DNA of 64,000 bases, from assembly GCA_025618425.1 (NCBI GenBank), contig CM046842.1, forward strand, positions 30,059,581 to 30,123,580, in the 5' to 3' direction. Positions 18,203 through 62,893 of the stretch are shown piece after piece. Numbering within the stretch: the first letter of the stretch is position 1; every line of letters starts with the position of its first letter. Source of the DNA: Heliocidaris tuberculata (taxonomy: Eukaryota; Echinodermata; Echinoidea; Camarodonta; Echinometridae). The notes beneath the pieces are model-generated. The model worked only from the letters and a program-made list of their open reading frames with translations, made no database searches and was not told the origin of the DNA. Both the position numbers and the translations under genes were made by a program.

Positions 18203-18209
18203 TTAACCT

Positions 18210-19095: not shown

Positions 19096-19539
19096 AGTAG
19101 TTTACTTTAAGAAAACATGATTAAAAGTTAGAAAATGGTAAAAATCATCTATTTTTTAAAAACCTTTTAGTGATATATAGCCTATAAATTGTCCATTTTT
19201 AGATTGCTTATCTGGAAGTAAAATATCCAAAGTTTTTCCAGGATTTCTATAGAAATTAAACTTAAAAGGTCCATTGATCATTTTTCATTGAAAAAACACA
19301 AAGAAGAACCCAAGTCCTGCAAATTAGAATGAAAACAAAGCTGCTGCTACATGTATCTCATGAACAAAATGTAACATGAGTACTCCAACGTGAGTAACCA
19401 TTATTCCTGTGAAATCTGGAAAAATTATGGGTCCAGTAATTTCTAATTGTCACCCAGTCAGTCTCCCTAGCATGGTTCTTTGGAAAGGGTTACGTAATTT
19501 TTCAAGAAAGATTCATATTAACACACTTTTCATTTAAAG

Positions 19540-24020: not shown

Positions 24021-24237
24021 AGCTAGGGTGATAATATCCAAACCCCTTTGGAAGTGTACAGAGACGTTATATAATAATATGGTGTGTGCTACACAAAAAT
24101 GGGTCCCACTTCTCCTCCTCCTGTTTCATCTTCCCTTTCTCTTTCTTTCTTTCTTCTTCTTTTATTCTTCTTCTTCTTTCTTGGTCTTCATCTTCTTCTT
24201 ATCGTTAGCAATCATCATCATAACTATCATTATTAAT

Positions 24238-24422
24238 GCAGTGAAACCTGTCTATAAAGACCACTCAAGGGAAACAGGAAAAGTGGTCTTTATGAGCAGG
24301 TGGTCTTTATGGACAGGTTCCTTTAATACATGTTGCAATGAAAAATGCTCTTCAAGGGAAACATAAAATGTGGTCTTCATAGACAGGTGGTCTTTCTATA
24401 TAGGTGGTTGCTAAAGCAGGTT
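24238..24422. mobile_element. GACCACCTG MITE, inverted copy
   Basis: This begins GTGAAACCTGTCTATAAAGA and ends GGTTGCTAAAGCAGGTT, the reverse orientation of the copies at 39672 and 56346. It lies in the BAF53 intron between exons e and f. Confidence 0.75.
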
Positions 24423-24530
24423 GGAATGTAGTACCATCATCATGATAGTTGCTTACTTACAAGCATACACATGCTTTCTTAGCAGTAAGGTAAAATAAAC
24501 CATCCAACATTCATCATCATCATCATCAGA

Positions 24531-24967: not shown

Positions 24968-25134
24968 CTGCAGGAGAAAGGGAAACATGACAAAAAGAAC
25001 ACAATTTCTTAGTGTATTATTTTTTACTCAGATTGCTTTATGTGACTTTCTGTGTTCGGTTAGAAAAGACTTCTTTTTGCAGCTACTGATCTGTTTCTAA
25101 CTCTCTCTCTTTCTCTCTCTATCTCCTTTTCTCT

Positions 25135-26490
25135 TTGTTTATTTCTCTTTATCTCTCTCTCTTTCTCTTTCCTCTCTCCCTCTCTCTCTCTCTCTCTCTA
25201 TCTCCTTTTCTCTTTGTTTATTTCTCTTTTTCTCTTTCCTCTCTCCCTCTCTCTCTCTCTCTCTCTCTATCTCCTTATCTTATTATTTCTCTTTTTCTCT
25301 CTCTTTCTCTTTCCTCTCTCCCTCTCTCTCTCTATATCTCCTTTTCTCTTTGTTTATTTCTCTTTTTCTCTCTCTCTTTCTCTTTCTCTCTATCTCCTTT
25401 TCTCTTTGTTTATTTCTCTTTTTCTCTCTCTCTTTCCTCTCTCCCTCTCTCTCTCTATATCTCCTTTTCTCTTTGTTTATTTCTTTTTCTCTCTCTCTTT
25501 CTCTTTTCTCTCTCTCTATCTCCTTTTCTCTTTGTTTATTTCTCTTTTTCTCTCTCTTTCCTCTCTCCCTCACTCTCTCTCTCTCTATCTCCTTTTCTCT
25601 TTGTTTATTTCTCTTTTTCTCTCTCTCTTTCTCTTTCTCTCTATCTCCTTTTCTCTTTATTTCTCTTTTTCTCTCTTTCTCTTTCCTCTCTCTCTCTCTC
25701 TCTATCTCCTTTTCTCTTTGTTTATTTCTCTTTTTCTCTTTCCTCTCTCCCTCTCTCTCTCTCTCTATTTCCTTATCTTATTATTTCTCTTTCTCTTTCC
25801 TCTCTCCCTCTCTCTCTCTATATCTCCTTTTCTCTTTGTTTATTTCTCTTTTTCTCTCTTTCTCTTTCCTCTCTCCCTCTCTCTCTCTCTATCTCCTTTT
25901 CTCTTTGTTTATTTCTCTCTTTCTCTCTCTCTTTCTCTTTTCTCTCTCTCTATCTCCTTTTCTCTTTGTTTATTTCTCTTTTTCTCTCTCTTTCTCTTTT
26001 CTCTCTCTCTATCTCCTTTTCTCTTTGTTTATTTCTCTTTTTCTCTCTCTTTCTCTTTCCTCTCTCCCTCTCTCTCTATCTCCTTTTCTCTTTGTTTATT
26101 TCTCTTTTTCTCTCTCTCTTTCTCTTTTCTCTCTCTCTATCTCCTTTTCTCTTTGTTTATTTCTCTTTTTCTCTCTTTCTCTTTCCTCTCTCCCTCTCTC
26201 TCTCTATCTCCTTTTCTCTTTGTTTATTTCTCTCTTTCTCTCTCTCTTTCTCTTTTCTCTCTCTCTATCTCCTTTTCTCTTTGTTTATTTCTCTTTTTCT
26301 CTCTCTTTCTCTTTCCTCTCTCCCTCTCTCTCTCTCTCTATCTCCTTTTCTCTTTGTTTATTTCTCTTTTTCTCTCTCTCTTTCTCTTTTCTCTCTCTCT
26401 ATCTCCTTTTCTCTTTGTTTATTTCTCTTTTTCTCTCTCTCTTTCTCTTTCCTCTCTCCCTCTCTCTCTCTCTTTCTTCTCATGAATATT
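25135..26490. repeat. Pyrimidine-only minisatellite, ~70-75 bp unit
   Basis: About 1.35 kb of almost pure C/T on the plus strand lies in the intron between BAF53 exons d and e. Units contain CTCCTTTTCTCTTTGTTTAT (the G and A here are the only regular exceptions), then TTCTCTTTTTCTCTC and a variable CT run. The long open frames here on both strands are low-complexity artefacts. The pre-mRNA of the host gene would carry it as a purine tract. Confidence 0.9.
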
Positions 26491-26638
26491 TCCTGTAGTA
26501 CCCTTGGTTTCTGTTAACTGTTATATCTCTGTCTGAATGCTTTCATGATTCTCTTCATTTGGGTGGGGTTGAATATTCTGGAAAACAGCGCTCCAAGATT
26601 TGCTTATGCAACAAATACAACAGGCTTTAATTCATTAA

Positions 26639-26893
26639 CCCTTTCAAGACAGGAAATATTTCAGGGCTAAATTGATCACATTTTGTTCTTCAAATTGGCA
26701 ACAACAATATGTTTCTTTTAGTGCTACATGCTTCTAATTAGCTGTAATGTCTTTGAAAACAATATACATGGTTAGGAATTTTGTTGAAAAGTTTCAAAAA
26801 TTGCCAATTTTGATAAAAAACAGGGATTTTGAATCTCTCAATGTGTTGCCAATTTGTTGCCAATTCAAGGATTTTAAAGCTCATTCGCCGTTA
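26639..26893 (+). mobile_element. CCCTTTC MITE, 3'-truncated copy
   Basis: It begins at TTAA-CCCTTTCAAGACAGGAAA and stops shortly after the middle motif GTTGCCAATT, which is locally duplicated here. It lies in the BAF53 intron upstream of exon e. Confidence 0.75.
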
Positions 26894-27062
26894 AACATGT
26901 AGGATTGGGGTTAGGGTTGTAACTGGGTTTTAGGTTCAGTCTTGGGTTAGGGCAAGGTAAAATGTTTGGTCCAGGATGGTATTTAGGATTTAGATTTAGC
27001 GCAGGACATTGTGGAGCAATGGTTAATGGAGCAGGTGTCGAAGCAGAAGAAGAATTGCTTAC

Positions 27063-27593: not shown

Positions 27594-27933
27594 AAAAAAA
27601 ACTATCCTGGAGCAGATCCTTCAATTCAAATTGCATTCTTATATATTTCTGCTTGAATGTATTCCACTGTTTTGCATATTTCTTTATATCATAATTCCTG
27701 ATTTTCATGCTTTCATCTGTATCAATATTTGACAAAATGGATGAAAAATCAACGATTAAGTTTGACTTGGGTACTGAGCAGTGTTTTTCATGATATCTTT
27801 TATTTCCTTCATACTCCGTAACCATTCACCCATAGAATGAATATTGATTCAAGTTTTGGGGGTTTATTTTATAGACTAGCTGTACAGACATCATTTTTTT
27901 CAGCTGATGAGTCAAAGAGCTGTACGACTTTAA

Positions 27934-28330
27934 CCCTTTTGAGACAACTGACCACATTTTGTGGTTTTGCTAAATAACTTTTGATTAAGAGCTCTAAAAA
28001 ATATAACAGATGCATGAGTAGAAAGAGCAAAATTTTTTGCACACACTATGTCCATTTTTGTTTCATGGCCATATTGCATTTGATGCCAGGAATTTTTAAA
28101 ACAAGAATAAGCTTTAAAATCCTTAAATTGGCAACACATTGTGAGGTTCAAAATCATTGTTTTTCATCAAAATTGGCAATTATTCAACTTTTTAACAAAA
28201 TTTTTAACCATGTATATTGTTTTAAAAAACATCACACCTTATTAGAACCATATGTAACACTACAAGAAAAATATTATTGTTGCCAATTTGAAGAACAAAA
28301 TTTGATCAATTTAGCCCTGTCCTGAAGGGG
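27934..28330 (-). mobile_element. CCCTTTC MITE, intronic copy
   Basis: A complete minus-strand copy flanked by TTAA on both sides, in the BAF53 intron between exons c and d. It is followed by a poly-C run at 28405-28425. Confidence 0.85.
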
Positions 28331-28452
28331 TTAAAGTAAAGTCATGGACCACAAACTTGTGAATTTCCTAAAAATTGTCATCCATTTGTCAGAGACATTT
28401 TACAGCCCCCCCCCCCCCCCCCCCCAAGCTCATCATGAGCAATAAGATTTAC

Positions 28453-31373: not shown

Positions 31374-31615
31374 TAAGTATGCCTCAACGTTATTCTTGAA
31401 CATGATAAATTGGGCATGAATATCTTCCATTGACATATAAACAAACATATATGACAGAGGTAACTGTTATTCTTCTTGGATGAAAAGCGTAGGACTTCTT
31501 AATTTAAACACAGTGTTGAACATTAACAATCTAGGGTGGGATTCGCCACCCATGCTATGGAAGGGGTTAATCCATGTCCAAGTACATGTACCTAGGGACT
31601 CTGCTCCTAGTATAA

Positions 31616-32023
31616 CCCTTTCAGGACAGGAATTATTTAAGAGCTAAATTGATCACATTTTGTTCTTCAAATTGGCAACAATAATATTTTTCTTTTAGTG
31701 CTACATGGTTCAAATAAGGTGTAATGTCTTTGAAAACAATATACATGGTTAGAAATTTGTTGAATACTTGAAAGAAATTGCCAATTTTGATGAAAAACAA
31801 TGATTTTAAACCTCTCAATGTGTTGCCAATTTAAGGATCTCAAAGCTTATTCTTGTTTTAAAAATTCCTGGCATCAAACACAATATGGTCATGCAATAAA
31901 AATGGACATAGTGTGTGCAGAAAATTTTGCTCTTTCTACTCATGCATCTGGTATATTTTTTAGAGCTCTGGATCAAAAGTTATTGAGCCAAACCACAAAA
32001 TGTGGTCAATTGTCTTGAAAGGG
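31616..32023 (+). mobile_element. CCCTTTC MITE, copy in giant intron
   Basis: A complete copy with the usual ends CCCTTTCAGGACAGG and TGTCTTGAAAGGG; the flanks have drifted to ATAA. Used here as a reference for the TACATGTA comparison, because it reads GGAATTATTTAAG with no insertion. Confidence 0.85.
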
Positions 32024-32245
32024 ATAACAGATAGAAATGTGCAGGTGTTCAATTACATGGGGATTTCCCCTTTCTCTTAACAAAATGCGCAATGGGTTCT
32101 GAACTTACATACTAGGTTGTGACTCTCCCTGCACAGGAGGTCTTCATTTATTTGAAAATAGGATCGCAATGTATCTATTTCAGAGAAGTGATTTTAATTC
32201 TCACACTATTTTTGAGTAACATCTTTTCTTTGGTGTTTGCACAGG

Positions 32246-32607: not shown

Positions 32608-33309
32608 CCTTTCATGACAGGAAATATTTAAAAGATAAATCAATCACTTTTTGTTCTTCAAATCTGCAACAACATTTTCTTTTAGTGCTACCTGGGGGTG
32701 TTTCATAAAGCTGTTCGTAAAGTTACGCATGACTTTACTAACGACTTGAATATGAAGTGCCAGATAGGATACTCAAAGTTTTTCCTGATGTTTTATCAAA
32801 GTGTGACTGTATTTCCAATAACCTCAATTAAATCATGGCAAAAAATATACTTTGCATTAAAAATGTTTGTTATAATAAGAATGTTAATCTACATCAGCAC
32901 AGTTCAACTTTAGTTGATGCCGTTAAAAATGATTGAGTATCCCATTTAGCTTGTCATATTTAAGTCATGCGTAACTTTACGAACAGCTTTATGAAAAGCT
33001 AATAAAATGTAGTGTCTTTGAAAACAATATTCTTGGTTAGGAACTTTGTTGAAAAGTTGAAAATATGGCAAATTTTGATTAAAAATCACTAATTTTGAAT
33101 CTGTCAGTGTGTTGCCAATTTAAGGATTTTGAAGGTTATTCTCATTTAAAAATACTGGCATCAAATGTAATATGGTCATGGAACAAATATGGATCAGTGT
33201 GTGCAGTGGTTGTTGCTCCTTCTACTCATGCATCTGGTATATTTTTTTGAACTCTGAATCGAAAGTTATTGGGCCAAACCACAAAATGTGGAACGTTGTC
33301 GCGAAAGGG
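32608..33309 (+). mobile_element. CCCTTTC MITE carrying a nested MITE
   Basis: The two halves (32608-32694 and about 32998-33309) make one CCCTTTC element. A separate inverted-repeat element has landed in its GTGCTAC region. Confidence 0.8.
32695..32997. mobile_element. Nested TTTCATAAAGCTGTTCG hairpin MITE
   Basis: The terminal inverted repeats are TTTCATAAAGCTGTTCGTAA, continuing to GTTACGCATGACTT, with a matching right end AAGTCATGCGTAACTTTACG, then AACAGCTTTATGAAA. The interior is AT-rich and non-coding. Confidence 0.85.
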
Positions 33310-33479
33310 CGCACCATGAACTACATGTAATTGACAGTACAAAGTTCTGCTTTCTATAACCCATTAACTCACGAAAACCACTTAATTACTTATTGAAACC
33401 ACACTTATGACAAGAAAAGTAAACAATAATTGATCCTTAAAGACAAGGGCAGTTTATGAGCTTTCTCATTCCTTTTATT

Positions 33480-36400
33480 CTCTAACATGAAAAGGAATAC
33501 TCTTGCAATGCTCTCCTAGTACTTGAAATAATGGACCTAATTTTTATGAAAAATCTTGGTGTGGTCCCACATATATACCCAAATGTTGAGTGCTTTTCAG
33601 CACGTTTAATTGTCATCAAGATTTAGTCAGTTTGATCACTGTAATCTATACCAAAACCTCAAAATAGTAATTATTCCTACATGTACTTACTATATAATAA
33701 TCCAATCAATATACAGTGTACTTTATATAACAGGGCTTCATGTATCTGACTTTTAAACGAACATTATATGCAGAACTGTTTACATTTCTGAAAAACGTTT
33801 CAACTATTTAAAACCAAAAAAAACCTCCTCAGATCTTTCCAAAATTGCTAGAATTTCACATTTTACACCAATGAAATCTCCTTTCAATATTTTCATATTC
33901 CCTTGAAATTAGTTTGATTTAGCTGTAAACTAAAACTAAAAAGAGATATTATTGGTTCTTTCTGTGCTCCGAAAGACCGAGTTCTTCACTGATCTCAAAC
34001 TAGAAAAACTAACATCAACAGATGCATGTGGGACTGGGTGAAAATTTGGCGAGATTTGGAGAAAAATTCATATTTTTCCACTGTAAAGTTTCATTGAATA
34101 TATAAACAGGAATCACCTGACTATTGCTTGAAATCAAATTTAAAGTGACAGGGAGTACTGACATGTAGCATACTGTAAAACCATTTAACATTTGCGAATT
34201 ACGCACATGCTTTAGACTTGCGAAGGTATCATGACATATTATTGAATCACAACAGACACAACACCGATTTTTGGGCAATTAGCGAAAGTTTCTTGCTGTC
34301 AAAATTGCTGTCGTTTAGAAATCGCAAAATCTACAGAATGATATGGTATAATATAGTATGGTATACTGTATGTGGTTGTGAAAGAATCTGATACATTTTT
34401 CTAAAATTTGATTGGTCTATTGATTAGTAAATATGAAATAAATTTGTATCAGGATGGTTTGGCTGTACAAATAATGAAAAGAACAGCATACATACAGGGG
34501 TTTAAAACAAAACAGGAAAGCAGCTCTACTTTGAGCACTTAAGAAATACCGGGTTTTACAAAAGTGAAACACGTACATGTACTTCACAGTCAGATAAATA
34601 CATACTTAAAATAAATTTTGGTTTACAAAAAAAGTGCTGGTTGTGATCTACTTGTACACTTCCTGTATAGAGATCATAATTGGTAATGAATTGCAGAGCT
34701 AGAAAAATAAATTTAAAGAGGATAAGAACTAATAAATAGTAATGAGCAAAGTCAGTTGAAATCATAACAAATTTGGCTAACAGCCATTATACTCAACTCT
34801 CAGCAAACACAAATCAAGATCTGTGATTTGATTAAATTGCAAATGCAAACTCTCTGACTTCTGAGGTATCCCAACAGTACATAAAGTTAGACAGCAAATG
34901 TGATGGACTGTTATAAGCTGATTTTATGATGGTTTCGAATCCACTTCTTAGCATTTCTTCCACAAACTTTTTGTCACATTAGCTTATCCTTGACATTGCA
35001 CTTCACAGTCGAAGAGGAAAGGAAGCTTGATTAGTGACCGCTCAGAAAGGACAAAATATCTCACCACAGGAACTGCTTGATTAGGATTACCATATATGCC
35101 TTGTGAGATCTATTGTACATGGAAGTTGATTTGGGTCATCTCTTTACAAATGCTGAACTTTAATAATGACGATATAAATCGCCTACTTTAAATAACACAC
35201 AACTATAAGTCTTGATACTGAAAGGTGTAGGTCATTTGCCAGAGTTATGAGCGGAAGCAGTTCTTGAGCGAATTTATCTACTCCTCAATGTACACGTAAC
35301 TTCGCATATTATTAAGCCATGCACAAATCATCAAGATATCTTCCATTAGAGATAAGGAGTTTGTTCCACAAAACCTATGATCTGAAGTCTTTCTTGCACC
35401 TGACTAACTGGCATATCAAAGCCTTCTGAAATCCACCAAGAGACATTTGCGTATTTTTTCAATAAGAGACGTGGAGTTTGTGACAAAGCAGCTATGATCT
35501 AAAGTCCTTCTTGCTTAAGACCTGCTTACAAAGGATTAAGCCTTTTGCTTTTGCTTTTAGAGGTGTGTCCTCCAACTATGTATGTACCACATTAGTGTAT
35601 ATTTTGTCATATATTTTGTTCAAAATACATGTACATTATTTTGCTCATTTATTACTTTGTATATTGAAAAGTTGGAAATAAACGTCTTTAAATTGAATTG
35701 AATTGAATTGAAAATCATCACAAGACAGTAGAACATTTATCATTCAAAATGCTGAGACTGACATAAAACAGCTATGACTTGAAGTACTTCTTGGACATTA
35801 CTAAATTGGATATTCGATAAAGACTTTTGAAAATCATCGGGACAGTCACAAACTTTCCCCTTGAGATTGTCAAATAAGAGGCCTACGAGACTGAGGTGTA
35901 ATCTTTTAGGACATAAGAAATCTTTACTCCATTAGTGACACTACAGTAATCACCAATCACCATGTCTAGTTCAAAGGCATCAAGGGTCCTTCTTTGCCTG
36001 TCGATTGTATGTGTAATGTCCTTGCTCTCCAGGGCAGTGCTTGCAAAAAGAGTACCAGGTACCCGGAGCACTGTGTCGCCAAGTGGATGTCAGCTGAGGA
36101 ATACAAGCCTTGGAACCAAAGCCACCTGTACTCATCTGAATCTCAAGTCTGTTCCTCAAGATCTTCCAAGGAACACAGTAACACTTGATCTCTCCTTCAA
36201 CAAGATAACAACCCTGTACAATGAGTCTTTTACCCATCTTCCAGACATCATTACCTTAGGGCTTACAAACAATATTCTCGTGAAGATAGAAAACAGCACC
36301 TTTGCACCTCTGGTTTATCTCAGAGAATTATCCCTAAGCAAAAACAGATTAGTTTCTCTTCCATCAGGTTTGTTTGGGGTGAATCGTCTCCTCTCTACAC

Positions 36401-39400
36401 TCATTCTAAGTAAAAACAGATTGACTTCTATCCCGAGTGATGCTTTGCCGTGGTCTACCAGTATTACCAAATTTGATTTAAGTGGCAACAGCATTTCCTT
36501 CATCAATCCGCAGGACTTCATACCCCTTCAGAATTGCTCATTGGAAAAACTGTATCTAGGATCTAATGCCTTAACGAACCTTCCTCTTAAAGTTTTCTCA
36601 TATTTGAATAATGTGACATACTTGTATCTTTCGAAAAACATTTTCCTTGAATTTCACCCCTCCTTCAGTTTAGGAAATGCTGTTATCAGGGAACTTTACT
36701 TAGAATCCTGCAAGATACGTGACATAATTCCATTGAACAAGTCACATGTTTTACTTAGAGAAAGGGCTAAAATCTCTGCTTTAAATCTACGAGAAAATAG
36801 AATACGTTACATCCCTGACTTTGCATTTTGGGGCTTGAATCACACAAAAATTGTTGTGCTTCAGGCAAACCAGATTGCCAGTCTATCAAATAGGTCTTTC
36901 TGTGGACTAGACCACTTGATTCACTTAGATTTATCTTACAATCGCCTAACCACATTAAACTTGGGTATTTTCTCCTGCAATAGAATGTTACAGCAATTAA
37001 AGCTAAAGGGGAATCTGATTGTACATCTATTCATCGGCTCATCAGGTCTATCTCTACTACATGAACTAGACCTTTCACACAATAACATCAAGGACATCGA
37101 AAGCAACAGAAACAACATAACATTTCCTTCACTGGAATACCTTAACCTTTCTTCTAACAAATTCACAGGGATCAGGAAGTATCTACTGTCGGGTTTCACC
37201 AATCTCAAAGTACTGAACATGTCAAACAATAACATCTACAATGTATACTCTCCAAAGTCTTTCACAAATCTAAGGTATCTCACAGAGCTTTACCTCACCA
37301 ATGAACGTTACCAAATTATCAACATGGCATTCTGCTACCTGGAGGCTCTACGCATTTTGGATTTATCATTTACACCAGTGAAATTAGCCTCCAAGAGTCA
37401 ATTTACAAACACCTCATCTCTCAATAGGCTTATCCTGCGTGAAAACAGTCTGAAGAGTGAAGATTTGTACAATATCACGACTAAACAATCTCTGTTTGAG
37501 GGGCTGGACTCTTTGGTAAGTCTGCATCTACAGTGGAATCAGCTTGACATGTTAGCACCTGGTACTTTTGATCCCCTGAGGAAACTCAGAATTCTGTACC
37601 TGTCTCAGTCTTCTATTAAAGTTCTGAGTCCCAGAGTTTTCAGACGCCTGACTTCTCTCGCAACATTAGATCTTCATGATAATGAGCTCTTAACACTCCC
37701 TCCTGATCTACTTCAAGAGCAGTACAAGCTTGGTGTCCTGTTCATAAACAACAACAAACTTGAGACAATTCCTAGGACTCTACTCAATGAAACCCCCTCT
37801 CTGCACACACTGCATATGCAAGGAAACCGGATCACTACAATAGAACCAAAGACAATGTTTCCAACAAACAGAACACTGCATCTAGATGCTTCTGGAAACC
37901 CATTTTCCTGCACATGCGATTTGAGCTGGTTTGTGAAGTGGCTCCGTTCCGGCACTGTTGAACTCAGGTATCCAGAAAAGACTTTTTGCTCGCTCACTTC
38001 CATCAAAGAAGAAATGAATTCACCAATCCTTTCATTCAACCCTGACCAGTACTGTGGCATTGATATTGTGATGATCACAGGTGCATCTTTTTCAGTCGTT
38101 CTGGTTGGGGTGATTTGCGTGGTGGCTTACAGAAAGCGCTGGTGGTTGAACTACAAAGTCTTCCTTCTCAAGCTAGCTATCTTTGGCTACATGGAAATAA
38201 ACCAAGACTTTGATGCCCAAGACTATGAGTATCAGCTCAACCTTATGTACATTGAAGATGACCAGGAGTGGGTGGACCGGGTCATGAAGCCAACGCTGCA
38301 AGAAAGGTTTCCACATCTGCAAAAAGTGGTCTTCGGTGACAACAATCTCAATATCGAGATGTTCTACATCAATGCTCTTCATTATGCCATTGAGAACAGC
38401 TTCAAGACTGTCCTGTTGCTAAGCAACAACTCAGTGGATGATGCCTGGTTCCTAACCAAGATGCGCATATCCCTAGAACATCTCAATGATACTAGACTGG
38501 ACAAGGTCATACTGATATTCCTAGAAGACATCCAGGATGATGACCTCCCTTACCTAGCCCGGTTATTCCTGAGTAAGAACAAACCTTACATGCTGTGGAC
38601 AGAGGATGAAGATGGCCAGGAACTCTTTTGGGCCCAGTTTGAGAAGAGCATGAGGGCAAACAGGGTACTCAATAGTGTTATTCCTGTTTAGCAAAAACAG
38701 CTCTGAAACAGAGTGTCCATAAACTCACGAAAGTGCCTTATGGCCAAGGACAAGTAACTCTGTCAGTCAAAGAACAATTTGGAGATCTTTTTTTTTTGTG
38801 ATGCCTTTCCAAGTGATCACTGGTAATGTTCTTGTTACAAAGAACAGAATTGTAACATTCAAAACCCTGCATGCAGAGATCTAATTACGAGTGAGTCTCG
38901 ACAGATCTTTTTCTCTTGAAAACCGAGCCTTGAGTGTTTTGCACTGGACGATATTACTACTATCAATATGAGCACTTGGGACAATGAATTCTTAAAATAT
39001 TTAAGCTTGTTGCAATCATGTCTATCAAACTCCAGTGTGGTTGGGTTGTCTATTGTATGGTTGTTAGGGAGTTTATCTCTTTGCAAAGTTTTGCAAATAT
39101 CATGAAATGTGGCTTGAAGTAGCATTACACCGTAATAATTATGAATATGAAATCCTAGTCATAGATTCTGTAGTATTTTCATGAAAATTAAAAAAAATAT
39201 GTTGATGCCTATTATGGGGTGCCAAGTGTAACAAATCAATCAGGCCAACTGTTTTCATGAATTATATCTTTCCAAGACCAATTTCAAGGACAACATCAAT
39301 TGCTAAGTTTGATTTCATTGCAAAATTCTTGATTTTATTACAGATCCTAAGTGTTACACTTGGCACCCCAATAGCTAAATAACATTTTCCGACCTGCATA

Positions 39401-39486: not shown

Positions 39487-39668
39487 TGTCTAGTAACACA
39501 TTGATCTACATTTGCTACTCTGCACTCAGGAGCAGTAAATGGGTACCTGGTAGTACTTTATTCCTTGAATGCTTTCAGTGCCTTAGGGCAGCTGGTCTAA
39601 AGCGAGGGTAATAATAGTAGTACTTTGTAGGTGCCTTGAGCATCCCCTGGGATGGATATGTGCATAAT
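39487..39668 (+). mobile_element. SINE body/3' end fragment
   Basis: It contains TGATCTACATTTGCTACTCTG, GTAAATGGGTACCTGGTAG, GGGTAATAATAGTAG and the 3' signature GTAGGTGCCTTGAGCATC. It lacks the tRNA-like head. Confidence 0.65.
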
Positions 39669-39671
39669 ACA

Positions 39672-39862
39672 GTCAAACCTACTTTAGCGACCACCTGTAC
39701 AGAAGGACCACCTGTCTATAAAGACCACACTTTTTGTTTCCCTTGAATAGCATTTCTCCTTGAAACATGTATTAAAGGAACCTGTCCATAAAGACCACCT
39801 GCTCATAAAGACCGCTTTTCGTGTCTCCCTTGAGTGGTCTTTATAGACAGGTTTCACTGTAT
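39672..39862. mobile_element. GACCACCTG MITE, complete copy
   Basis: This runs from CAAACCTACTTTAGCGACC to GTGGTCTTTATAGACAGGTT, with internal repeats of AAAGACCACCTG and CTCCCTTGAGTGGTC. It lies directly after a SINE fragment. Confidence 0.75.
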
Positions 39863-40931
39863 AAATATAGCTATTATCCTACAATATAATAAGCTACATG
39901 TAAGTATTTTGGGGAGTTTTCTTTGTTTTGAATAGGCGCCCCCCCCCCCCCCCCGGCTCCATTGGTCCCCTTCTTTCGGTGCGTACGTGTGGGGAATGCT
40001 TCTTGGGTGCTTGGGACGTACCTTTTAAGGATCCCAGTGCCATCCATATTTAAATAATTTTTTAAATTGTAATTTCTGGAGGGAACTGGTCACTATTTGT
40101 ACACGTGAGCGAGTGCTCTTGAACAAATGCTTCGTACTCACTCTGTATGTTGATCGCTTTTTACACGTGGACGAGTGTACCCTTGTTTATTGCTCAGCCC
40201 TACAGGGGAGGAAGTTCAGTTAGTCTCACTGTATGCATGTGCATGGTGATGATATCGACAGGGAGATGGGAGTTTGAGTTAAAACTCCCATCTTCCAGCT
40301 TCAATTTTTTTAGATTAAATTAATTGTTCCACTTGTTCTGTGGAAACTTCTTTACCACATCATTTTTCGAACTTTCTTTCACTTAAGTATTCTAGTTTTT
40401 TATGTAACTGAAATGTCATGAATGATAACATACTTTTTTTTGTTCGTTTTCTTCTGTGCCGGTGAAAAGTGCAGAACAAACAACTTTTCGTCGCTGCATT
40501 GTCGGCATGGCTGTGCTTGGATGTTCTGTATCGGCATACCTATTATTCTACTCAATCTCTCACTGTTGATTTACATACATGTACAACATCTTTATATCTT
40601 CATCTCCCTGTATTTCCTTTTTTTGCTCAGGCTCTCATGTATTTCCCCATATCTGTATCTACTACAATAGGCCTACAACGTACATGTATCTTTCTGTGTT
40701 TTTCTCTTTTGCTTTTATGTGGGCCTGTTTGATACTCTTCTTTCAATCTCCTGCAAATAGGGAATATCATTTTTATCAACAGTTAAACAGACAGGAATGA
40801 GGAAAATGGTCCTCATATTATGGGAAACAAGGTCAAATAAGGTCAAATAATGAAGTGGTACCAATATAAATTGTAAAAGTAGTAATATCGGCATTATCGC
40901 TGAACTTGGAAGATATCCTCTTATCATTGAG

Positions 40932-41640: not shown

Positions 41641-41810
41641 CATATCTATATATAGTGTATATTATGTATATAATTCTTTTAATGGCTCTTTTCCTCATCA
41701 CCTTACACTACTTGTAAATAATCTGATAATTAATATTTCATGAAAGAGCATGTCTAGTTGATCAATTATGAGTATTTTGTTTTTGTTTGTTTCGAGTGCT
41801 ATACTATACT

Positions 41811-42412
41811 AGTGCTGGTATCGGCATGGAAAATCTATGTCGCCATGTCGCAATAAAATTATCGCCGATGTCGACATGTGTCGACATCTGGACATGAGTC
41901 AAACAAGTCTAAACTCGGGTCGCTCCCGTAGTGACCGTACACTATTAAACCAGAGTTACCCGACACAAATTCACAAGAGCTTTACATGGAATACATGCAC
42001 TATGTCCTCACGGGCTCACACTCGCAGTCATACTCACTTACAGTTCTCAAAGATGCACACTGTCAACTATTTGCCCCAAAATTTGTTTTGTATGATCCAA
42101 TTTATCAAGCATTAATGAAAGTCATGTGGTGCGAGTCAGCTAGTGTCGCAGATCTAGGCATGTACGTGTACGTAATGTATACCGGTCGTCGCAGCTACAT
42201 GTTTGTAGATACGCAGCGATCGTGTCGGCGCGCGCGCTGCTAATGCGTATGTGAAACAAATCACGTACGCGCGCACGACGCCACGGCGAGGTACATGTAA
42301 AAAGACCCATTTTATGTCGCCATCGGAGCATGCGTGTCGACATGTCGGCAAAGTCCAAAACCAGTACTTTTGTCGCCATAGTGGCGACATCAGGCGTGTC
42401 GATACCAGCACT
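41811..42412 (+). mobile_element. ~600-bp DNA transposon, 10-bp target duplication, copy 1
   Basis: The ends are AGTGCTGGTATCGGCA and, as complement, AGTGCTGGTATCGACA. The element is flanked by ATACTATACT at 41801-41810 and again at 42413-42422. Subterminal regions are rich in TGTCGCCA and GTCGACA. A 92-codon open frame (41837-42115) is shared with copy 2 but resembles no transposase I know. This is a non-autonomous element; a 10-bp duplication would fit Mutator-like or IS4-like groups, but the class is not determined. Confidence 0.88.
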
Positions 42413-42559
42413 ATACTATACTCACGATATATTGTTCTGTTTTTGTCATAACTGTGTTACTCTTAATATTATTATTATCATTATTATTGTTCTGATTACT
42501 GCTGTTATATTCGAGCAAAATATTGATGGATATGTCAATGAAGTTCAATGAATAAATAC

Positions 42560-47579: not shown

Positions 47580-48665
47580 TCGAAAATTGATTTGGGGCGG
47601 AACTTACAGATATTATTCAACCCTAATGAAACAACAAATAAATAAAGGATACAACGCAAAAATGTTTTTATCCAATTGGAAATTGATTTGGAGCGTAACT
47701 TATGGATAATCTACAAACCAGATAAAACAAGAAATGAATGAAGTCATACAACGACGAATGTTTTTAAAGAATCAAAAATTGATTTTAGGTGTAACTTACG
47801 GGATTCTATACCCCAAATTAAACAACAAATGAATGAAGTATACAAACCTAAAATGTTAACATCGAATAGAAAATTAGTTCGGCGCATAAATTACAAAAAA
47901 TCTACAGACCAAATGAAACAACAAATAAATTAGAACTAAGACGCAAAATACATTTATCGAATTGAAAATTGATTTGGCGCTTAACTTAGGGATACAACTC
48001 AAATAAAACAAAATGAATGAAGTATACGACGCAAAATGTTTTATCGAAATGAAAATTATAAGTTGGGGCGTAATTTATGAAGAATCTACAACCCAAATAA
48101 AAGATGAAGTGGATGACGTATACAACGTACATTTTTTTATATCGAATATAAAATTGGTTCGGCGCATAAATTACAAAGAATCTACAGACCAAATGAAACA
48201 TCAAATAAATTAGAAATAAGACGCAAAATACGTATATCGAATCAAAAATTGATTTGGCGCTTAACTTAGGAATAATATACAACCCAAATAAAATATGAAA
48301 TGAATGAAGTATACAACGCAAAATGTTTTTTTTTGTTTGTTTGTTTTTGTGTTGTTTTTTTTTTAACTGGAAATTGATTTGGCGCGTAACTTACGAATAA
48401 TATACAACCCAAATAAAACATCAAATGGATGAAGTATACAACGCAAACTGTTTTTATCGAACTGAAAATTCAGTTGCCGCGTAATTTATGGAGAATCTAC
48501 AACCCAAACAAAACAACAGATGAATCAAGTATTCAACGCAAAACGTTTAAATCGAATAGAAAATTGCTTTGGCGCATAAATTACAAAGAATCTACAGACA
48601 AAATGAAACAACAAATAAATCAGAACTAAGTCGCAGAATTCATTTATCGAATCGAAAATTGAAAG
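47580..48665. repeat. ~97-bp tandem array, about 12 units
   Basis: Units begin AAAATTGATTTGGCGC, continue GTAACTTACG, ATACAACCCAAATAAAAC and GAAGTATACAACGCAAAATG, and end TTTTTATCGAAT. Unit starts fall near 47582, 47677, 47777, 47868, 47964, 48050, 48148, 48244, 48366, 48464, 48559 and 48653. Alternating unit subtypes (GATTTGG vs AGTTCGG) suggest a higher-order two- to three-unit repeat. It lies between the TLR copies. Confidence 0.85.
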
Positions 48666-50392: not shown

Positions 50393-50558
50393 CCAACTCG
50401 GAGTTGGGTTCTGCGCAAGGGGTTTTTCATGTTTTCCTTCATTTTCTTCATACTCCTTAACCGTTAATCCATAGAAAGCCAGGTAAAGTTTTTTGAGGTT
50501 GATTTTATACATTCTAACTATACACAAATTATTTTTTTAGGTGACTGGTACACTTTCA
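50393..50558 (-). mobile_element. GTACC MITE, deleted copy in TLR unit 2
   Basis: TTAAAGTGTACCAACTC opens the element and GGTGACTGGTACACTTTC closes it. The interior is the reverse-orientation GTTCTGCGCAAGG ... GAGGTTGATTTTATAC block. The corresponding place in TLR unit 1 (~34430) has no such element. Other fragments are at 47281-47400 and 48845-48892. Confidence 0.75.
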
Positions 50559-51818
50559 GAAATATCGCGTTTCACGAAAGTGAAACATACATGTACTTCA
50601 CAGCCCGATAAATACATGCTAAAAAAATATTTTGGTTAAAAAAAAAATATTCTGGTTGAGATCTACCTATACACTTCCTCTGCAAAGATCATAATAGGTA
50701 ATGAGCTAGGAAAATCAATTTCAAAAGGATAAGAACTAATAAAAAGTAATGTGCAAATTCAGGCACAGTCATAACAAAGTTTGGTAATAGGTGTTATCTT
50801 CAACTCTCAGCAAACATAAATTAAGATCTGCACAATTTGATTCAAGTGCAAAGGGAGACTTTCAGACTTCTAAGGACCTCCCAACAGTACATACATGTAA
50901 AGTTAGCAAATGCAATGGACTTTTAAGAGTTGATTTAATGATGGTTTCGACTCCGCCTCTTAGATTTTCTTCCACAAACTTAGTTTCCATTAGATTATCC
51001 TTAACAGTGCACTTTCCAGTCGAGGAGAAAAGGAAGCTTGATCAGTGACCGCTCAGAAAAGACAAATATTTCACCATAGGAACTGCTTGATTAGGATTAC
51101 ATGTACCATATATGCCTTGTGAGATTTATTGTACATGCAAGCTGATTTTGGTCATCTCTTTACAAATGCTGAACTTCGATAATGACGATGTACATGTAAA
51201 TCGCCTACTTTACATAACACATACAACTATATGTATAAGTCATGATATTGAAAGGTGTAGGTCATTTGCCAGAGTTATGAGCTGAAGCAGTTCTCGAGCG
51301 GTTTTATCTACTCCTACATGTACACGTAACTTTGCATATTATTAAGCAGTGCACAAATCATCAAAATATCTTCCATTAGAGATAAGGAGTTTGTTCCACA
51401 AAAGCTCTGATTTGAAGTCCGTCTTGCACCTGATTATTAAACTGGCATATCAAAGCCTTTTAAAATCCACCAAGAGACATTTGCATATTTTTTCCATTAG
51501 AGACGTGGAGTTTGTGACAAAGCAGCTATGATCTAGAGTGCTTCTTGCTTAAGACTTGCTCACGAATGATTAAGCCTTGTGAAAATCATCATGAGACAGT
51601 GAAATATTTATCATTCAAAATGCTGACACTGATGTAAAGGAGCTATGATTTGAAGTACTTCTTGGACATGACTAAACTGGATATACGATTAAGACTTGAA
51701 AATCATCAGGACAGTCACATATTTTCCCTTTGAAATTGCCCCAAAAGAGGCCTACGAGACTGAGGTGTAATCTTTTAGAAATCTTTACTCCATTTATAGT
51801 GGCACTAAAGTAATCACC

Positions 51819-54546
51819 ATGTATGGGTCAAAGGCATCAAGGGTCCTTCTTTGCCTGTGGATTGTATGTGTAATGTCCTTGCTCCCCAGGGCAGTGCTTA
51901 CAAAAGAAGTACCAGGTACCCTGAGCACTGTGTCACCAAGTGGATGTCAGCTGAGGAATACAAGCCTTGGAACCAAAGCCACCTGTATTCACCTGAATCT
52001 CGAGTCTGTTCCTCAAGATCTTCCAAGGAACACAATAACACTTGATCTCTCCTTCAACAAGATAACAACCCTGTACAATAAGTCTTTTACCCATCTTCCA
52101 GACATCATTACCTTAAAGCTTTCAAGCAATATTCTTGTAAGGATGGAAACGGCACCTTTGCACCTCTGGTTTATCTCAGAGAATTATCCCTAAGCAAAAA
52201 CAGATTAGTTTCTCTTCCATCAGGTTTGTTTGGGGTGAATCGTCTCCTCTCTACACTCATTCTAAGTAAAAACAGATTGACTTCTATCCCCAGTGATGCT
52301 TTGCAGGGGTTTAACAATATCACCAAATTTGATTTAAGAGTCAACAGTATTTCCTTCATCAATCCCAGGGACTTCATACCCCTTCAGAATTCCTCATTGC
52401 AAACACTGTATCTAGGATCTAATGCCTTAAGAAGTCTTCCTCTTAAAGTATTCTCATATTTGAACAATGTGACATACTTGGAACTTTCAAAAAATGTTTT
52501 TTCTGAATGGCACATCTCCTCTCTTTTAGGAAATTTAGAAATAAAGAAACTGGTCTTGGATTCCTGCAAGATACATGACATAATTCCATTAAAAAGTCAC
52601 ATGCTAATGTCACTGACTTTCCCCAAATCCTTGGATTACATCTTACAGGTAACCAGATAATGTCAATTCCAGACTTCGCATTTTGGGGTTTATATCAAAC
52701 AAACATTCTTGAGCTCCAAGGTAATCGCATAACTATCCTATCAAACAAATCACTCTGCGGATTAGACCGGCTTATGAAACTGGATCTGTCAAGAAATCAT
52801 CTAACTTCCCTAACATTCCGCATGTTCTCCTGTAATAAAATGTTACAGCACTTAAAACTGGCTAAGAATAAAATTGTAAGTTTCTCTACTGATACAGTAT
52901 TCGGTCTTTCTTCACTCTATTACCTAGACTTGTCAGGCAATAATATCAAGGAAGTCAAAAGCCATTATCGTAGAACAACTCCTTCTATGGAATACTTGGA
53001 TCTTTCTTTTAACAAACTGAGAGTCATCAATAAATATTTCCTAATGGGGTTCATTAATCTGAAAATACTGAAGATGTCCCACAATGACTTGAATAACCAA
53101 TACTCCCAAAATGCCTTCACAAAGCTTAAACACCTCAAAGAGCTCTATCTGGAAAATGAGCGTAACCAATATGTAAATAAAGCCTTTCGGTACATGGAGT
53201 CTCTTAGCATATTGAAGTTATCATTTTCAGAATTGCACCTAAGGTCCAAACGTCAATTCACAAACCTCTCATCTCTTTTAACACTGAGTATGCGTGAAGA
53301 CAAAGTGGAGAGTGCTGATTTATATGATATCAAGACACAAGAATCACTATTTTTTGGACTAAAATCTTTGAAAAAGCTCAACTTGAGAGGGAATCGGTTA
53401 ACAATTTTAGCACAAGGTACTTTCGACCCTCTAAAGAAACTTCAAGTACTTGACCTATCCCAGTCTTCTATTAGAGTGCTCAGTCCTGGAGTCTTCAACA
53501 GTCTGACTTCCCTAGCACAATTGGATCTGAATGATAATGAGATATTAATACTCTCTAACGATCTACTTCAAGGGCATTACAAGCTTGGTGTCTTGTACAT
53601 AAGCAAAAACAACCTTGATTTCATCCCCAAAACTCTGTTCAATGGAACCCCCTCTCTGCACACACTATATATGCAAGGAAACAGGATCACTACAATAGAA
53701 CCAAAGACCATATTCCCAACAAACAGGACACTGAAACTAGATGCTTCTGGAAACCCATTTTCCTGCACATGCGATTTGAGCTGGTTTGTGAAGTGGCTCC
53801 GTTCCGGCAATGTTGAACTCAGCCATCCAGAAAAGACTTTTTGCACGCTCACTTCCATCAAAGAAGAAGTGAATTCACCAATCCTTTCATTCAACCCTGA
53901 CCAGTACTGTGGCATCAACGTTGTGATGATTACAGGTACATCCATTTCAGTTGTTCTAGTCAGTGTAATTTGCTTGGTGGCTTACAGAAAGCGCTGGTGG
54001 CTGAACTACAAAGTCTTCCTTCTCAAGCTAGCCATCTTTGGCTACGAAGAAATAAACCAAGATTTTGATGCCCAAGACTACGAGTATCAGCTCAACCTCA
54101 TGTATAATGAAGATGACCAGGAGTGGGTTGACCAGGTCATAAAGCCAACGCTGCAAGAAAGGTTTCCACATCTGCAAAAAGTGGTCTTCGGTGACAACAA
54201 TCTCAATATCGGGATGTTCTACATCGAAGCTCTTCATTACGCTGTTGAGAACAGCTTCAAAACTGTCCTGTTGCTAAGTAACAACTCAGTGGATGATGCC
54301 TGGTTCCTAACCAAGTTGCGCATAGAGCTAGAACATCTCAATGATACTAGACTGGACAAGGTCATACTGATATTCCTAGAGGACATCCAGGATGATGACC
54401 TCCCTTACCTGGCCCGTTTGTTCTTGAGTAAGAACAAACCTTACATGCTGTGGACAGATGATGAAGATGGCCAGGAACTCTTTTGGGCTCAGTTTGAGAA
54501 GAGCATGAGGGCAAACAGGGTGCTCAATAGTGTTATTCCAGTTTAG
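51819..54546 (+). pseudogene. Toll-like receptor paralogue with two frameshifts
   Basis: This is a tandem copy of the intact TLR, similar over its whole length and near-identical in the signal peptide, LRR cap and TIR domain. It is read in three consecutive pieces: 51819-52193 (signal peptide and first LRRs), 52147-52660 (more LRRs) and 52660-54546 (remaining LRRs, LRR cap, membrane segment VVLVSVICLVAYRKRW, full TIR). The first break, near 52145-52150, is a one-base deletion relative to the intact copy. The second, near 52615-52635 in a run of T and C, lies where the two copies also differ in length. The last 628 codons stay fully open, and TIR changes are mild, so loss is recent or the breaks are assembly errors. 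A protein starting at 52660 would lack a signal peptide. Its 5' and 3' flanks are also duplicated. Confidence 0.85.
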
Positions 54547-55110
54547 CTTCAACATTGGCTAAAAAAGCGCTTAAACCGAATATCAAGAAAATTTAAGAAA
54601 CGCCTTATAGCCAAGGACAAGTAACTACATGTATGTTGGTCAAAGAACAATTTGGAGATTTTTTTTTTCTTTGTGATAATGCCTTTCCAAGGGATCAATG
54701 GTAATGTTCTTGTTACAAAGAACAGAATTTTTTTTGCAACATTTAGAACCGTGCACTGAGTTATCTAATTATGGGCAAGCCTTAATAGATTTTTCTTTTT
54801 TCTCTCAAAAACTGGGCCTTGATTGTGTTGCATCGGTTGGTATTTCTACTATCAATATGAGCATTTGGGAAATTGCATTCTTAAATTTCATATTCAAGCC
54901 TCTTGCAATGTCTTTAAACCATAATTATAAAAATATGAAATCCTACAGTATTTTTATGAAAAATTAAAAATGTTGATGCCTATTATGGGGCGCAAGTGTA
55001 ACACTTATGACTCCATTTTGAAATCAGTGATTTTGGTGATAAAATCAATCTGGCTATTTTGCTCTTGTGGACAAAATCAGCTACTAAAGTTACACTTGGC
55101 ACCTCAAAGT

Positions 55111-55702
55111 AGTGCTGGTATCGACACGCCTGATGTCGCCACTATGGCGACAAAAGTACTGGTTTTGGACTTTGCCGACATGTCGACACGCATGCTCCGA
55201 TGGCGACATAAATGGTTCTTTTTACATGTACCTCGCCGTGGCGTCGTGCGCGCGTACGTGATTTGTTTCACATACGCATTAGCAGCGCGCGCGCGCGACA
55301 CGATCGCTGCGTATCTAGCTGCGACAACCGGTATACATTACGTACATGTACATGCCTAGATATGCGACACTAGCTGACTCGCACCGCATGACTTTCATTA
55401 ATGCTTGATAAATTGGATCATACAAAACAAATTTTGGGGCAAATAGTTGACAGTGTGCATCTTTGAGAACTGTAAGTGAGTATGACTGCGAGTGTGAGCC
55501 CGTGAGGACATAGTGCATGTATTCCATGTAAAGCTCTTGTGAATTTGTGTCGGGTAACTCTGGTTTAATAGTGTACGGTCACTACGGGAGCGACCCGAGT
55601 TTAGACTTGTTTGACTCATGTCCAGATGTCGACACATGTCGACATCGGCGTTAATTTTATTGCGACATGGCGACATAGATTTTCCATGCCGATACCAGCA
55701 CT
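55111..55702 (-). mobile_element. ~600-bp DNA transposon, 10-bp target duplication, copy 2
   Basis: This is the same element in inverted orientation, very similar to the copy at 41811-42412 by eye. It is flanked by the perfect duplication ACCTCAAAGT at 55101-55110 and 55703-55712. It sits in the 3' flank of the TLR pseudogene at a site that is uninterrupted (GGCACCCCAATAGC) in the flank of the intact TLR. Confidence 0.88.
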
Positions 55703-55848
55703 ACCTCAAAGTCAAATAATCTCTGGCGACCTGCCTAAAGCTGCATTCAAAATTTAACGGTCAATTATTCCATGAGAAATCAGCTTCCAGTTTCTATGTT
55801 CAAAAGAAAGTTCTTTTACACCACTGTACATGTATGCATACATGTATA

Positions 55849-58564: not shown

Positions 58565-58844
58565 TACCACATTTTATGTTTCCCTTGAAAAGTGTTTCTC
58601 ATTGAAACATGTATTAAAGGAACCTGTACATAAAGACCACCTGCTCATAGAGACCGCTTTTCTTGTCTCCCTTGAGTGGTCTCTATAGACAGGTTTCACT
58701 GCACATGTACATGTAGTGCCTTTAAGGTATAACTTATATTGATTACCTATCGAGACTGACTATCATCAAATGGATTGTTCAATGTAATATGATGAACCTT
58801 AACTTTTATAATGTATGTGTAACTGCTTGTAATGTTCTTGTTAA

Positions 58845-59253
58845 CCTTTTCAGGACAGGAATTATTTAAGAGGTAAATTGATCACATTTTGTTCTTCAAA
58901 TTGGCAACAATATTATTTCTCTTTTAATGCTACAAGATTCTAATAAGGTGTAATGTCTTTGAAAACAATACACATGGTTAAAAAAGATGGTCGGTAAGTT
59001 GAAAAAGTTGCCAATTTTGATAAAAAACAATGATTTTGAACCTCTCAATGTGTTGCCAATTTAAGGATTTTAAAACTTATTCTCCTTGTTAAAATTCCTG
59101 GGATCAAATGCAATATGGTCATGTAACAAAAATGGATATAGTATGTGCAGAATTTTTTGCTCTTTCTACTCATGCTTGTGGTATATTTTTTAGAGCTCTG
59201 AATCAAAAGTTATTGAGCCAAACCACAAAATGTGGTCAATTGTCTCGAAAGGG
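58845..59253 (+). mobile_element. CCCTTTC MITE, copy near 59 kb
   Basis: A complete copy from AACCTTTTCAGGACAGG to TTGTCTCGAAAGGG. It contains no TACATGTA at the 5' GGAATTATTTAAG site. Confidence 0.85.
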
Positions 59254-59849
59254 TTTTTATCAGGGTTTTAGCTACGCCGGGCGGCACTAGGCAGGGCCGC
59301 CCACCACTCATGATTTCCACCAGGCACTCTGGGTCGAGTGTCACTTTCCCGCTTGGCACTATTCTTCATAACCGAGGTTCAACATATACGCATATTATCT
59401 TCATTGAAAATGACCTTGTCATGTGTTAATTACACAGATACCAAGCAAGATCCTCTGTTATGCCTTGTCAGATTGACAATGGGTGGTTTACATAATCCTG
59501 ACAATACATATAGTTTTTTTTTTAAACCAGGATTTTTCTCTTGGTAGTGTTTGAGATATTCACTTCTTGTTTATTTTCCATTTCCTTCCATGGCTGCGCC
59601 AGCGATCATACGTACACATACATGTATACACGTACGTGTACACAATGAAACAAGGGCAAGGCAAAGCGTAGCATCCCCTCGCCGGGTACAAGCGGCCTAT
59701 ATACATTGTACGTCAGAACAAGTTACCTCCATTATACTATTATATTACTAGGTATGGAAGTTACTAATACCTGGGGAATGGATGTACAGAAAGTTTACTA
59801 CTTTATGGAATGACCCATGAGAAGATCTGAAAATAAACTTTCTCATGTA

Positions 59850-60549: not shown

Positions 60550-62224
60550 AGCTGGGAGGATCTAGGACAGCCTTCACGTTGACACTATCGAAGACCTTCT
60601 ACTGTTTTACCAATGGAAGAAGAATTTCCTTATATGGATAGTAAATGCTATACTTATACTTCAGCTTATTCTTATACTTATACTTATGTTGGAGGATACA
60701 AAATTGACCCTCCTTTGTGTTAATAAACAATGTGTTCTGAAACAAAAATAAAGAGTTATTTCATGAGACAAGAAATAATAGTTGTTGCCAATGGCAGTTG
60801 ATTTCAACATCAACAACTCTATTCTTACTACGTTTCATTTGAAAATGAAGCTCAGTATGTTACATTTCAAAGCACATCTTGTACATGATCACAGTATGGC
60901 TTGAACGCCTATGTCTGCGTATCGCCCTTGCCTGCGTGATTCTGGTAAAACAAAACACACAACGTACACAAACTTTTCCTCTTTATTATAGCAATGTATA
61001 TATTCATGCAAAAAAAGGGTAAAATATATTGAGAAAATATCTTATTTCAGTGATCTTATTCGCAAGCCTCGAAATGCTGTCTTTTGTGTAAAAAATCCTG
61101 AACTGCTTGTAAACTGAATGAGTGTGCAGACATGGCTACTGTCATATTTGCAATGTCAAAATCACATGACTGCCTTTTCTTATCAAGTGAAAATGGTATC
61201 ATTCTTGCTCAAATTTTGCCGAGATTTTTCACACACTTGCTTGTGAAAATATCTGGAATAGATATGAAATTAAGTATTAGAAAAACATAAAAGAAGATCT
61301 TGTTCAATTTCAAGTCAAATCTTAGGTGCGCAGACATAGAGCTCCCCATCATACACTGTATATATCTTGGCTGTAGAAAATGTAAAAAATTGGGACCTAC
61401 GTGTATATAATGTACAAAGGCAAAAATATGCAAAAAATGTGTTACTGGAAAGATTACAAAGTGTAAATAATAAATTGCAATTGTCTTGGTAAATGTATGG
61501 AGTGTTCATATTCAGGATGGTCCACAAGGGGTTTTAACATGTAACAGCGACAGGTTTGAATTTTGAAACCACAGGTTTGAAAATCGGAGACAGGTTCAGA
61601 TCTCTTAACTATCTCATATTCAAACCACATTAATCATGAAATATTAGTCGTAAAATCTGTTTCAAAATGCTCAAAATATGCCTGATATTGCACCAGAAAG
61701 CCTCAGAGAACCACATAACTTCCAGGGCCGTCAAGGAGGCTCTGGACTCCGGCTGCAAGGGACGTTGCACTTCGCATGATACATCAGTTCATACTTTTTC
61801 CCAGTTGCAATTATGCATGTTTGAATTTTTGTTGGTGGACCACTCTACATATTATGTGCCACTTATTTATCATTTTTTCTTCTTATATAATCTACACTGT
61901 AGCATACTAAAGAGTTCTGTATCAAGCTCAAACTCGGTGCCTCTTTTGGTTATCTTTTCTCTTCTCTCTCTCTCTCTCTCTAATTGTGCTTAATATAAGA
62001 CATAATGTATCAATTAATCTCTCTCATTCCTAATATTAACCAGTCATTTATTCAACCTTGGAATATTTACGTTTACGTCAGATGTAATATTGCATTATGA
62101 TTAAATACTTTTTTGAGAAATTTGGTGTAAATAAACAAGTAAATAAACATGGCTAATGTATATTTTTTTGCAAGTTTGTCAAATATGCCTGCATATATCT
62201 TGTTGTCATAGTCTTAAGAGAACC

Positions 62225-62893
62225 TGGGTCCTGTTTTATGAAACTTGTTATCAATAACAAGTTGCAATAATTGATATAAGCTACTGAAATCCTTGCATCT
62301 GATTGGCTGAGAGCAAATTTGTCATAGAAATTTGGTAGTTGTTATTGATAACAAGTTTTATGAAACAGGGTCCTGGGCCCCGTTGCATAAAACTTACGGT
62401 TAATGGTAACTCTGCTATCAATGGTAACTACCATGGTAACATCACTCAACAGCCAATCAAAATCAAGGTTTCCATGGGAGTTACCATTGATGGCAAAGTT
62501 ACCGTTAATGGTAAGTTTTATGCAACGGGGCCCAGGAAACTGTTTCATAAAACTTGTTATCAATAACAACTACCAAATTTCTATGACAAATTTGCTCTCA
62601 GCCAATCAGATGCAAGGATTTCAGTAGCTTATATCAATTATTGCAACTTGTTATTGATAACAAGTTTCATGAAACAGGGCCCAGGTGCTTGTGGAAAGAG
62701 AATGTCTTGTCATTATAGCATTTCACATCACATCTGGGCCCCATTTCATAAAACTTGTTATCAGTAACAACTGCCACATTTCTACATGTATGATAAATTT
62801 GCTCTCAGCCAATCAGATGCAAGGATTTTAGTAGCCTATAACAGTTACTGCAACCTTTTACTGATAACATGTTTTATGAAACAGGGCCCAGGC
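62225..62893. mobile_element. Cluster of four hairpin MITEs
   Basis: Three GGGCCC-type hairpins (about 62225-62375, 62533-62685, 62733-62893) surround a different one (62376-62535). The latter has ends GGGCCCCGTTGCATAAAACT and AGTTTTATGCAACGGGGCCC and internal TTACCGTTAATGGTAA-type repeats. The copy at 62733-62893 has TACATGTA at 62783-62790 where its sisters have TA. Open frames here are mirror-image artefacts of the palindromes. Confidence 0.8.

Follow-up and report, generated by a model that had tools for sequence, protein, structure and literature searches.

Exact six-base gains of a palindromic octamer at TA in sea urchin DNA, possibly the excision marks of a mobile element

The window, by which is meant the whole 64-kb stretch of urchin DNA that was analysed, contains two TLR units. 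For an 803-residue query from the ORF at 35950-38691 the closest relatives come from Strongylocentrotus purpuratus, at 72% identity, and Lytechinus pictus, at 65%.

34539-39016, plus strand: TLR unit 1, with an ORF at 35950-38691; the aligned part is without the gains described below
50555-54909, plus strand: TLR unit 2, with an ORF piece at 52579-54546; it bears the gains

Repeats of several kinds accompany the two units. An element of ~415 bp whose ends resemble TTAACCCTTT..AAAGGGTTAA, and which is probably a MITE of the piggyBac type, is present in seven copies, some of them partial (573-1026, 6584-7004, 26635-26898, 27928-28340, 31611-32034, 32999-33312 and 58840-59256). The members of an inverted pair, 41810-42413 and 55110-55703, are 97% identical by BLAST and 99% without gaps. 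They have TAGTGCTGGTATCG ends, and the second copy has CCTCAAAG on either side (an 8-bp duplication), ends and flanks which suggest that the pair is hAT-like. Related copies with CAGTGAAACCT-type ends, at 24220-24433 and 39665-39877, form a candidate TA-target family. There is also a CT-rich satellite of ~1.4 kb with a 61-67 bp unit and three frames open (25102-26477), a diverged tandem array of ~95 bp units (47582-48662), and a set of long inverted repeats, or fold-back elements, whose arms are 70-90% identical (17053-18206, 19537-20103, 62219-62689 and 4809-5253).

The octamer TACATGTA occurs at 79 sites in the window. In 100 dinucleotide shuffles it averages 1.6 and never exceeds 6, so that the excess is ~50-fold; the trinucleotide expectation is 3.1. 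Its abundance is not a matter of chance. When overlapping sites are merged there are 73 runs, and their distribution is very uneven.

23-7807, no strand assigned: dense TACATGTA cluster, with 49 of the 79 sites

Of the remaining sites, 1 is in 8-31 kb and 29 are in 31-64 kb. Counted as runs, the segments 0-8, 8-31 and 31-64 kb have 43, 1 and 29, for 638, 1589 and 2437 other TAs (chi-square P ~7e-30). The stretch 8000-31000, with its single site, separates a very dense stretch from one of moderate density. The ORFs of the TLR units (taken as 35950-38691 and 52000-54546) have no TACATGTA where 4.1 would be expected (P=0.017). A second palindrome, TAGGCCTA, is present at 5 sites (4221, 7272, 8929, 16407 and 40668; 0.4 expected) and was dropped as a further test case, being too rare. 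TACATGTA may be frequent in the DNA of urchins and molluscs. In viral contigs TACATGTACATGTA matches at least 120 stretches; among the matches listed there are 273 octamers in 982 kb, ~240 of which the pattern itself requires. Two repeat strings had 0 matches in viral contigs, and one had 0 in genome contigs.

The exact form predominates. On both strands together the perfect palindrome is counted 158 times, while its one-mismatch neighbours, in 12 classes of 4-10 each, total 82 where ~36 (dinucleotide) or 54 (trinucleotide) are expected. This slight excess, clearest for TACGTGTA/TACACGTA (8 versus 0.8 expected, the most strongly raised neighbour), is what decay of TACATGTA would give, and in TACACGTA, as a product of decay, the flank bias described below persists at 11 of 12 positions. 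Judged by that bias, decayed copies would make up ~11 (95% range 0-28) of the 66 one-mismatch forms. With so few, most TACATGTA sites look young, or maintained; the age estimate of 0.037 substitutions per site that follows from ~11 decayed copies (range 0-28) is too wide for dating. With TACATGTA masked, shorter related strings are near background, TACATG at 67 (52 expected) and TACATA/TATGTA, the 4-bp type of scar, at 59 (61.5 expected).

Comparison of the two TLR units gives the first view of how the octamer arises. The sites concerned, none with an assigned strand, are as follows.

50892-50899: TACATGTA, private to unit 2; exact, counterpart TA at 34882-34883
51098-51105: TACATGTA, private to unit 2; exact, counterpart TA at 35088-35089
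51191-51198: TACATGTA, private to unit 2; one substitution nearby, counterpart TA at 35175-35176
51228-51235: TATATGTA via a 6-bp difference (alternative reading TATGTATA); counterpart near 35204
54626-54633: TACATGTA, private to unit 2; 6-bp difference, counterpart near 38759
34574-34581: older TACATGTA common to both units; partner at 50588-50595

The flank alignment, of 991 columns and 88% identity, has 17 indels. Four of these are of 6 bp, three creating TACATGTA and one TATATGTA, which is one transition away from it. The private TACATGTA at 54626 is beyond the coding region, and all five private differences sit in unit 2. A first-pass annotation of the sequence had listed four such sites, each as a plain TA turned into the octamer. 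Base-by-base alignment bears out its 6-bp differences and adds a fifth, at 35204/51228. Three of its octamers (50892-50899, 51191-51198 and 54626-54633) are where it placed them, and the second is real but lies at 51098-51105 instead of 51108-51115. The change from plain TA is exact at 34882/50892 and 35088/51098. Beside 35175/51191 there is one substitution of the kind it had mentioned, and at the fourth site the six-base difference holds but the unit 1 counterpart reads TC, not TA. Taken alone, the TLR pair may reflect either gain in unit 2 or loss in unit 1, either state being potentially the older. Two further pairs, at 51315 and 55343, differ by point changes, for which decay of the opposite copy is a possible reading; opposite 51315 stands TCAATGTA, a decayed-looking form of TACATGTA.

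Polarity comes from the MITE, and other paralogues extend the comparison (again no strand is assigned).

995-1002: TACATGTA in the piggyBac-like MITE copy 573-1026; plain TA in 5 of 5 informative relatives
708-721: 14-bp gain ending in TACATGTA (714-721), same MITE copy; absent in 5 aligned relatives
62783-62790: TACATGTA; plain TA in the local paralogues near 62572 and near 62336
42196-42207: TACATGTTTGTA at TA, a 10-bp difference in a hAT-like copy; partner plain TA near 55317

Since all five informative MITE relatives have a plain TA, site 995 is a polarised gain (the copy 27928-28340 is without that stretch and 32999-33312 is truncated). The alignments for 62783 are weak, at 60-65% identity, and six further ones among the 8 listed were uninformative. 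The comparison used at most 8 alignments per site, and poor matches at 6364, 6396, 49370, 60305 and 63348 were dropped. The TA is duplicated in the product at 995, 50892, 51098 and 62783. Where related copies can be compared, then, the alignments indicate that TACATGTA arises by an exact 6-bp gain at a plain TA. TACATGTTTGTA at 42196 is a possible aberrant scar, and its 10-bp gain suggests CATGTTTG as a candidate element end. Not all sites are recent: the pair 42292/55223, within a mobile element, and the pair 34574/50588 are each shared by both copies and so are older. In the non-coding parts of 10 alignments within the window, 5 of 7 six-bp indels create TACATGTA, the other two being TATATG and TTTTTT. 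This was a hand tally, from which coding columns, with two six-bp indels of their own (GTATTC and TTATCG), were removed by hand.

The flanks of the 73 runs show a symmetric preference. A at −3 together with T at +3, giving ANNTANNT, is found in 34 runs (7.0 expected); A is at −3 in 63% of runs and in 31% of other TAs, while −1 is poor in T and −2 in G. The bias persists without ATG and ACA flanks (58/112 versus 28%). When six sites are read in the copies without the octamer, 7 of their 12 flank positions fit it (P=0.046, letters entered by hand), so that the bias appears to precede the gain and, on these small numbers, is probably a target preference. At 51098 and 62783, two of the six gains, neither side fits. 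We take the ANNTANNT preference to resemble the target consensus of Tc1 and Sleeping Beauty (SB). In the masked window, TACATA/TATGTA (n=59) carries a weak form of the bias, with A at −3 or T at +3 in 41% versus 31%, and a few of these may therefore be +4 scars.

The reading that we favour, though tentatively, is that TACATGTA is the uniform excision scar of a TA-targeting cut-and-paste element with self-complementary CATG tails. An element of the Tc1/mariner/IS630 type would enter at TA, with ANNTANNT preferred, and the TA would be duplicated. On exit, the cuts would keep four terminal bases, CATG, as a single-stranded tail on each flank. As CATG is its own reverse complement, the tails could pair and, once sealed, leave TA-CATG-TA, a net 6-bp gain per exit. 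Self-complementary tails predict that the excess should lie with the full octamer, as it does. What the window itself shows is the exact 6-bp difference at TA, the direction of that change in a MITE copy, one prevailing product, the symmetric flanks and the absence of octamers from the TLR ORFs. An element with CATG ends, cutting with a 4-nt stagger and having its flanks religated, would then have been present in the past. A stagger of four nucleotides is that of Minos.

Passages from work on related elements give precedents for the separate steps. Tc1/mariner elements are described as cutting two to three nt inside their 5′ ends before joining to TA, and the family member ISY100 as cutting two nucleotides inside (PMC2170065). 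When the cut vector backbone was treated with T4 ligase the predicted TATATA junction was obtained (PMC2170065), so that religation of the cut ends gave a single exact junction, as is proposed here; the ISY100 tails would likewise be self-complementary. The ISY100 tail is of 2 nt and the result was with purified protein and ligase, whereas the tail proposed for the urchin, CATG, would be of 4 nt. For mPing, an excerpt reports that complementary overhangs lead to precise repair (PMC4561436). By the logic of ISY100, a 4-nt CATG tail would yield exactly TACATGTA; this would account for the prevalence of one product, for the TA duplication and for the flank preference. Paramecium internal eliminated sequences are similar in being TA-bounded, with a Tc1/mariner-like end consensus, and in their precise removal, but their programmed excision is scarless, with one TA left behind (PMC3464196).

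Several points count against a scar with CATG tails. Tc1/mariner overhangs are given as 2-3 nt in one review, against the stagger of 4 nt. Two scans of the 64 kb, with its 79 octamers, found no inverted-repeat element of the form TA-CATG..CATG-TA (the second left out arms beginning CATGTA and gave the best ten pairs), so that the first-pass annotation's suggestion to look for elements with compatible ends led to none in the window. The best CATG inverted pair, 26765/28214, proved to be two opposite MITE copies, and the 600-bp pair 41810/55110 has ends and an 8-bp duplication that are hAT-like and not of the TA type. No transposase family was seen among the 20 of 241 window ORFs compared with Pfam. 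Very many excisions would be required if the density of TACATGTA is general. The uneven distribution (49 sites within 8 kb but a single one within 23 kb) is not predicted by the scar itself, and the two gains that are without the flank preference also weigh against it. On a separate point, among the open-licence papers listed, titles and the openings of abstracts describe neither TACATGTA in urchins nor a CATG-tailed scar, which is weak evidence of absence.

Addition of CATG at TA in one step by an enzyme or repair route, with no large element, is unlikely. A variant would place ACATGT between the T and the A. It would account for one dominant exact product, and both the high octamer density and the failure of two scans to find a candidate element in the window are in keeping with it, whereas a ANNTANNT preference and a TA duplication are expected of TA-transposases. 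We know of no enzyme for exact CATG addition at TA, which counts against such a route. The pattern would be an animal counterpart, spread by insertion, of cyanobacterial HIP1 (GCGATCGC), with which it has in common that one exact palindromic octamer is strongly over-represented (here 79 versus 1.6, in one window). The gain of HIP is modelled as biased point mutation in a review (PMC4390886), which cites a study whose title refers to spread by nucleotide substitutions (PMC4390886). The urchin octamer differs in that it belongs to an animal and arises at TA by a gain of 6 bp, and its differences between copies are 6-bp gains and not substitutions at near matches. That the urchin genome is being seeded by one-step enzymatic CATG insertion, an insertion-driven HIP in an animal with no large element, is in itself unlikely.

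That TACATGTA, as the core of ANNTACATGTANNT, is a functional protein-binding site supplied by insertion and kept by selection is rather improbable. The dominance of the exact octamer (79 versus ~11 derived-looking one-mismatch forms, 95% range 0-28) and the strong clustering speak for selection. The differences in the MITE copy and the TLR flanks are, however, 6-bp gains rather than substitutions, the flank bias is seen also in copies that lack the octamer, and decayed-looking forms do exist (TATATGTA at 51228 and TCAATGTA opposite 51315).

Quite improbable too is the classical Tc1-type scar, in which 2-nt CA tails from both ends are kept to give TA-CA-TG-TA. This was the form that the first-pass annotation had given to its excision idea. 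Six added bases at TA, a duplicated TA and a symmetric preference are all supported, while the detail of two terminal bases on a CA..TG element is not. The sequence fits CA..TG ends, the copies at 24220-24433 and 39665-39877 have CAGTGAAACCT-type ends, and the flank bias of TACATA (41% versus 31%) is in the same direction. CA/CA tails are, however, non-complementary, so that mixed scars are expected, yet TACATA/TATGTA is without excess (59 versus 61.5). In the C. elegans soma the typical Tc1 scar (78%) is +4, according to one excerpt (PMC13148408). Germline products are given as highly variable, with non-complementary 2-nt 3′ overhangs, 26 distinct products being found among 103 animals (PMC4490562). 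The common feature of Tc1 and Sleeping Beauty is a duplicated TA, the scar consisting of TA, element end bases and TA, but Tc1 scars are mixed and in the soma typically +4, whereas the window octamer is one dominant +6 palindromic product. A single class did make up 32 of 39 Tc1 products in polq-1 mutant worms (PMC4490562), showing that host repair can make scars uniform; by analogy, repair alone could have done so in the urchin. The 2-nt reading is weakened as a whole. For Sleeping Beauty, the scar is C(A/T)GTA in a passage of one review and is printed as TAG(T/A)CTA in a passage of another. The corresponding TACWGTA is present window-wide at 22 sites (e.g. 2851, 8906 and 14785; 11.6 expected), with A at ±3 in 21/44 flanks, an excess hinting, as one string among many examined, at other TA scars in the window besides TACATGTA.

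Production of TACATGTA by microsatellite-like (ACATGT)n slippage and decay, which the first-pass annotation had offered as its main alternative, is very improbable. Some sites border partial repeats (flanking ATG 21 versus 3.7, ACA 13 versus 3.3) and six adjacent pairs exist. Single runs, however, are 68 of the 73, and six adjacent pairs compare with a mean of 3.4 from random TA insertion (range 0-9, P=0.135), no tandem excess over independent placement; independent insertion fits, so that neither run lengths nor adjacency call for slippage. Nor do the octamer-lacking copies at 995, 51098 and 62783 have a repeat seed. A flank-weighted simulation expected 18.7 adjacent pairs (range 11-26), perhaps an overcount since its weights were partly learned from repeat-like neighbours; the 6 seen are a result against simple weighted insertion. 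An assembly or copying artefact is barely credible, given the older TACATGTA sites common to paralogues and the retention of the flank bias at 11 of 12 positions by decayed TACACGTA.

Most likely, then, a mobile element is behind the uniform TACATGTA mark, though none was found within the window. By extrapolation from one 64-kb window, such gains would extend through the genome. Among medium-sized indels in the alignments made, such 6-bp gains rank with the more frequent, which would bear on indel models for the lineage if the window is typical. If no element exists, a novel insertion process is at work. If TACATGTA is an excision scar, it would illustrate how self-complementary tails allow a TA-element to depart with marks that are uniform and preserve the reading frame. 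A single string would then record the element's jumps even after the element's loss, and an assembly would reveal how often it inserted, which targets it chose and where it was active.
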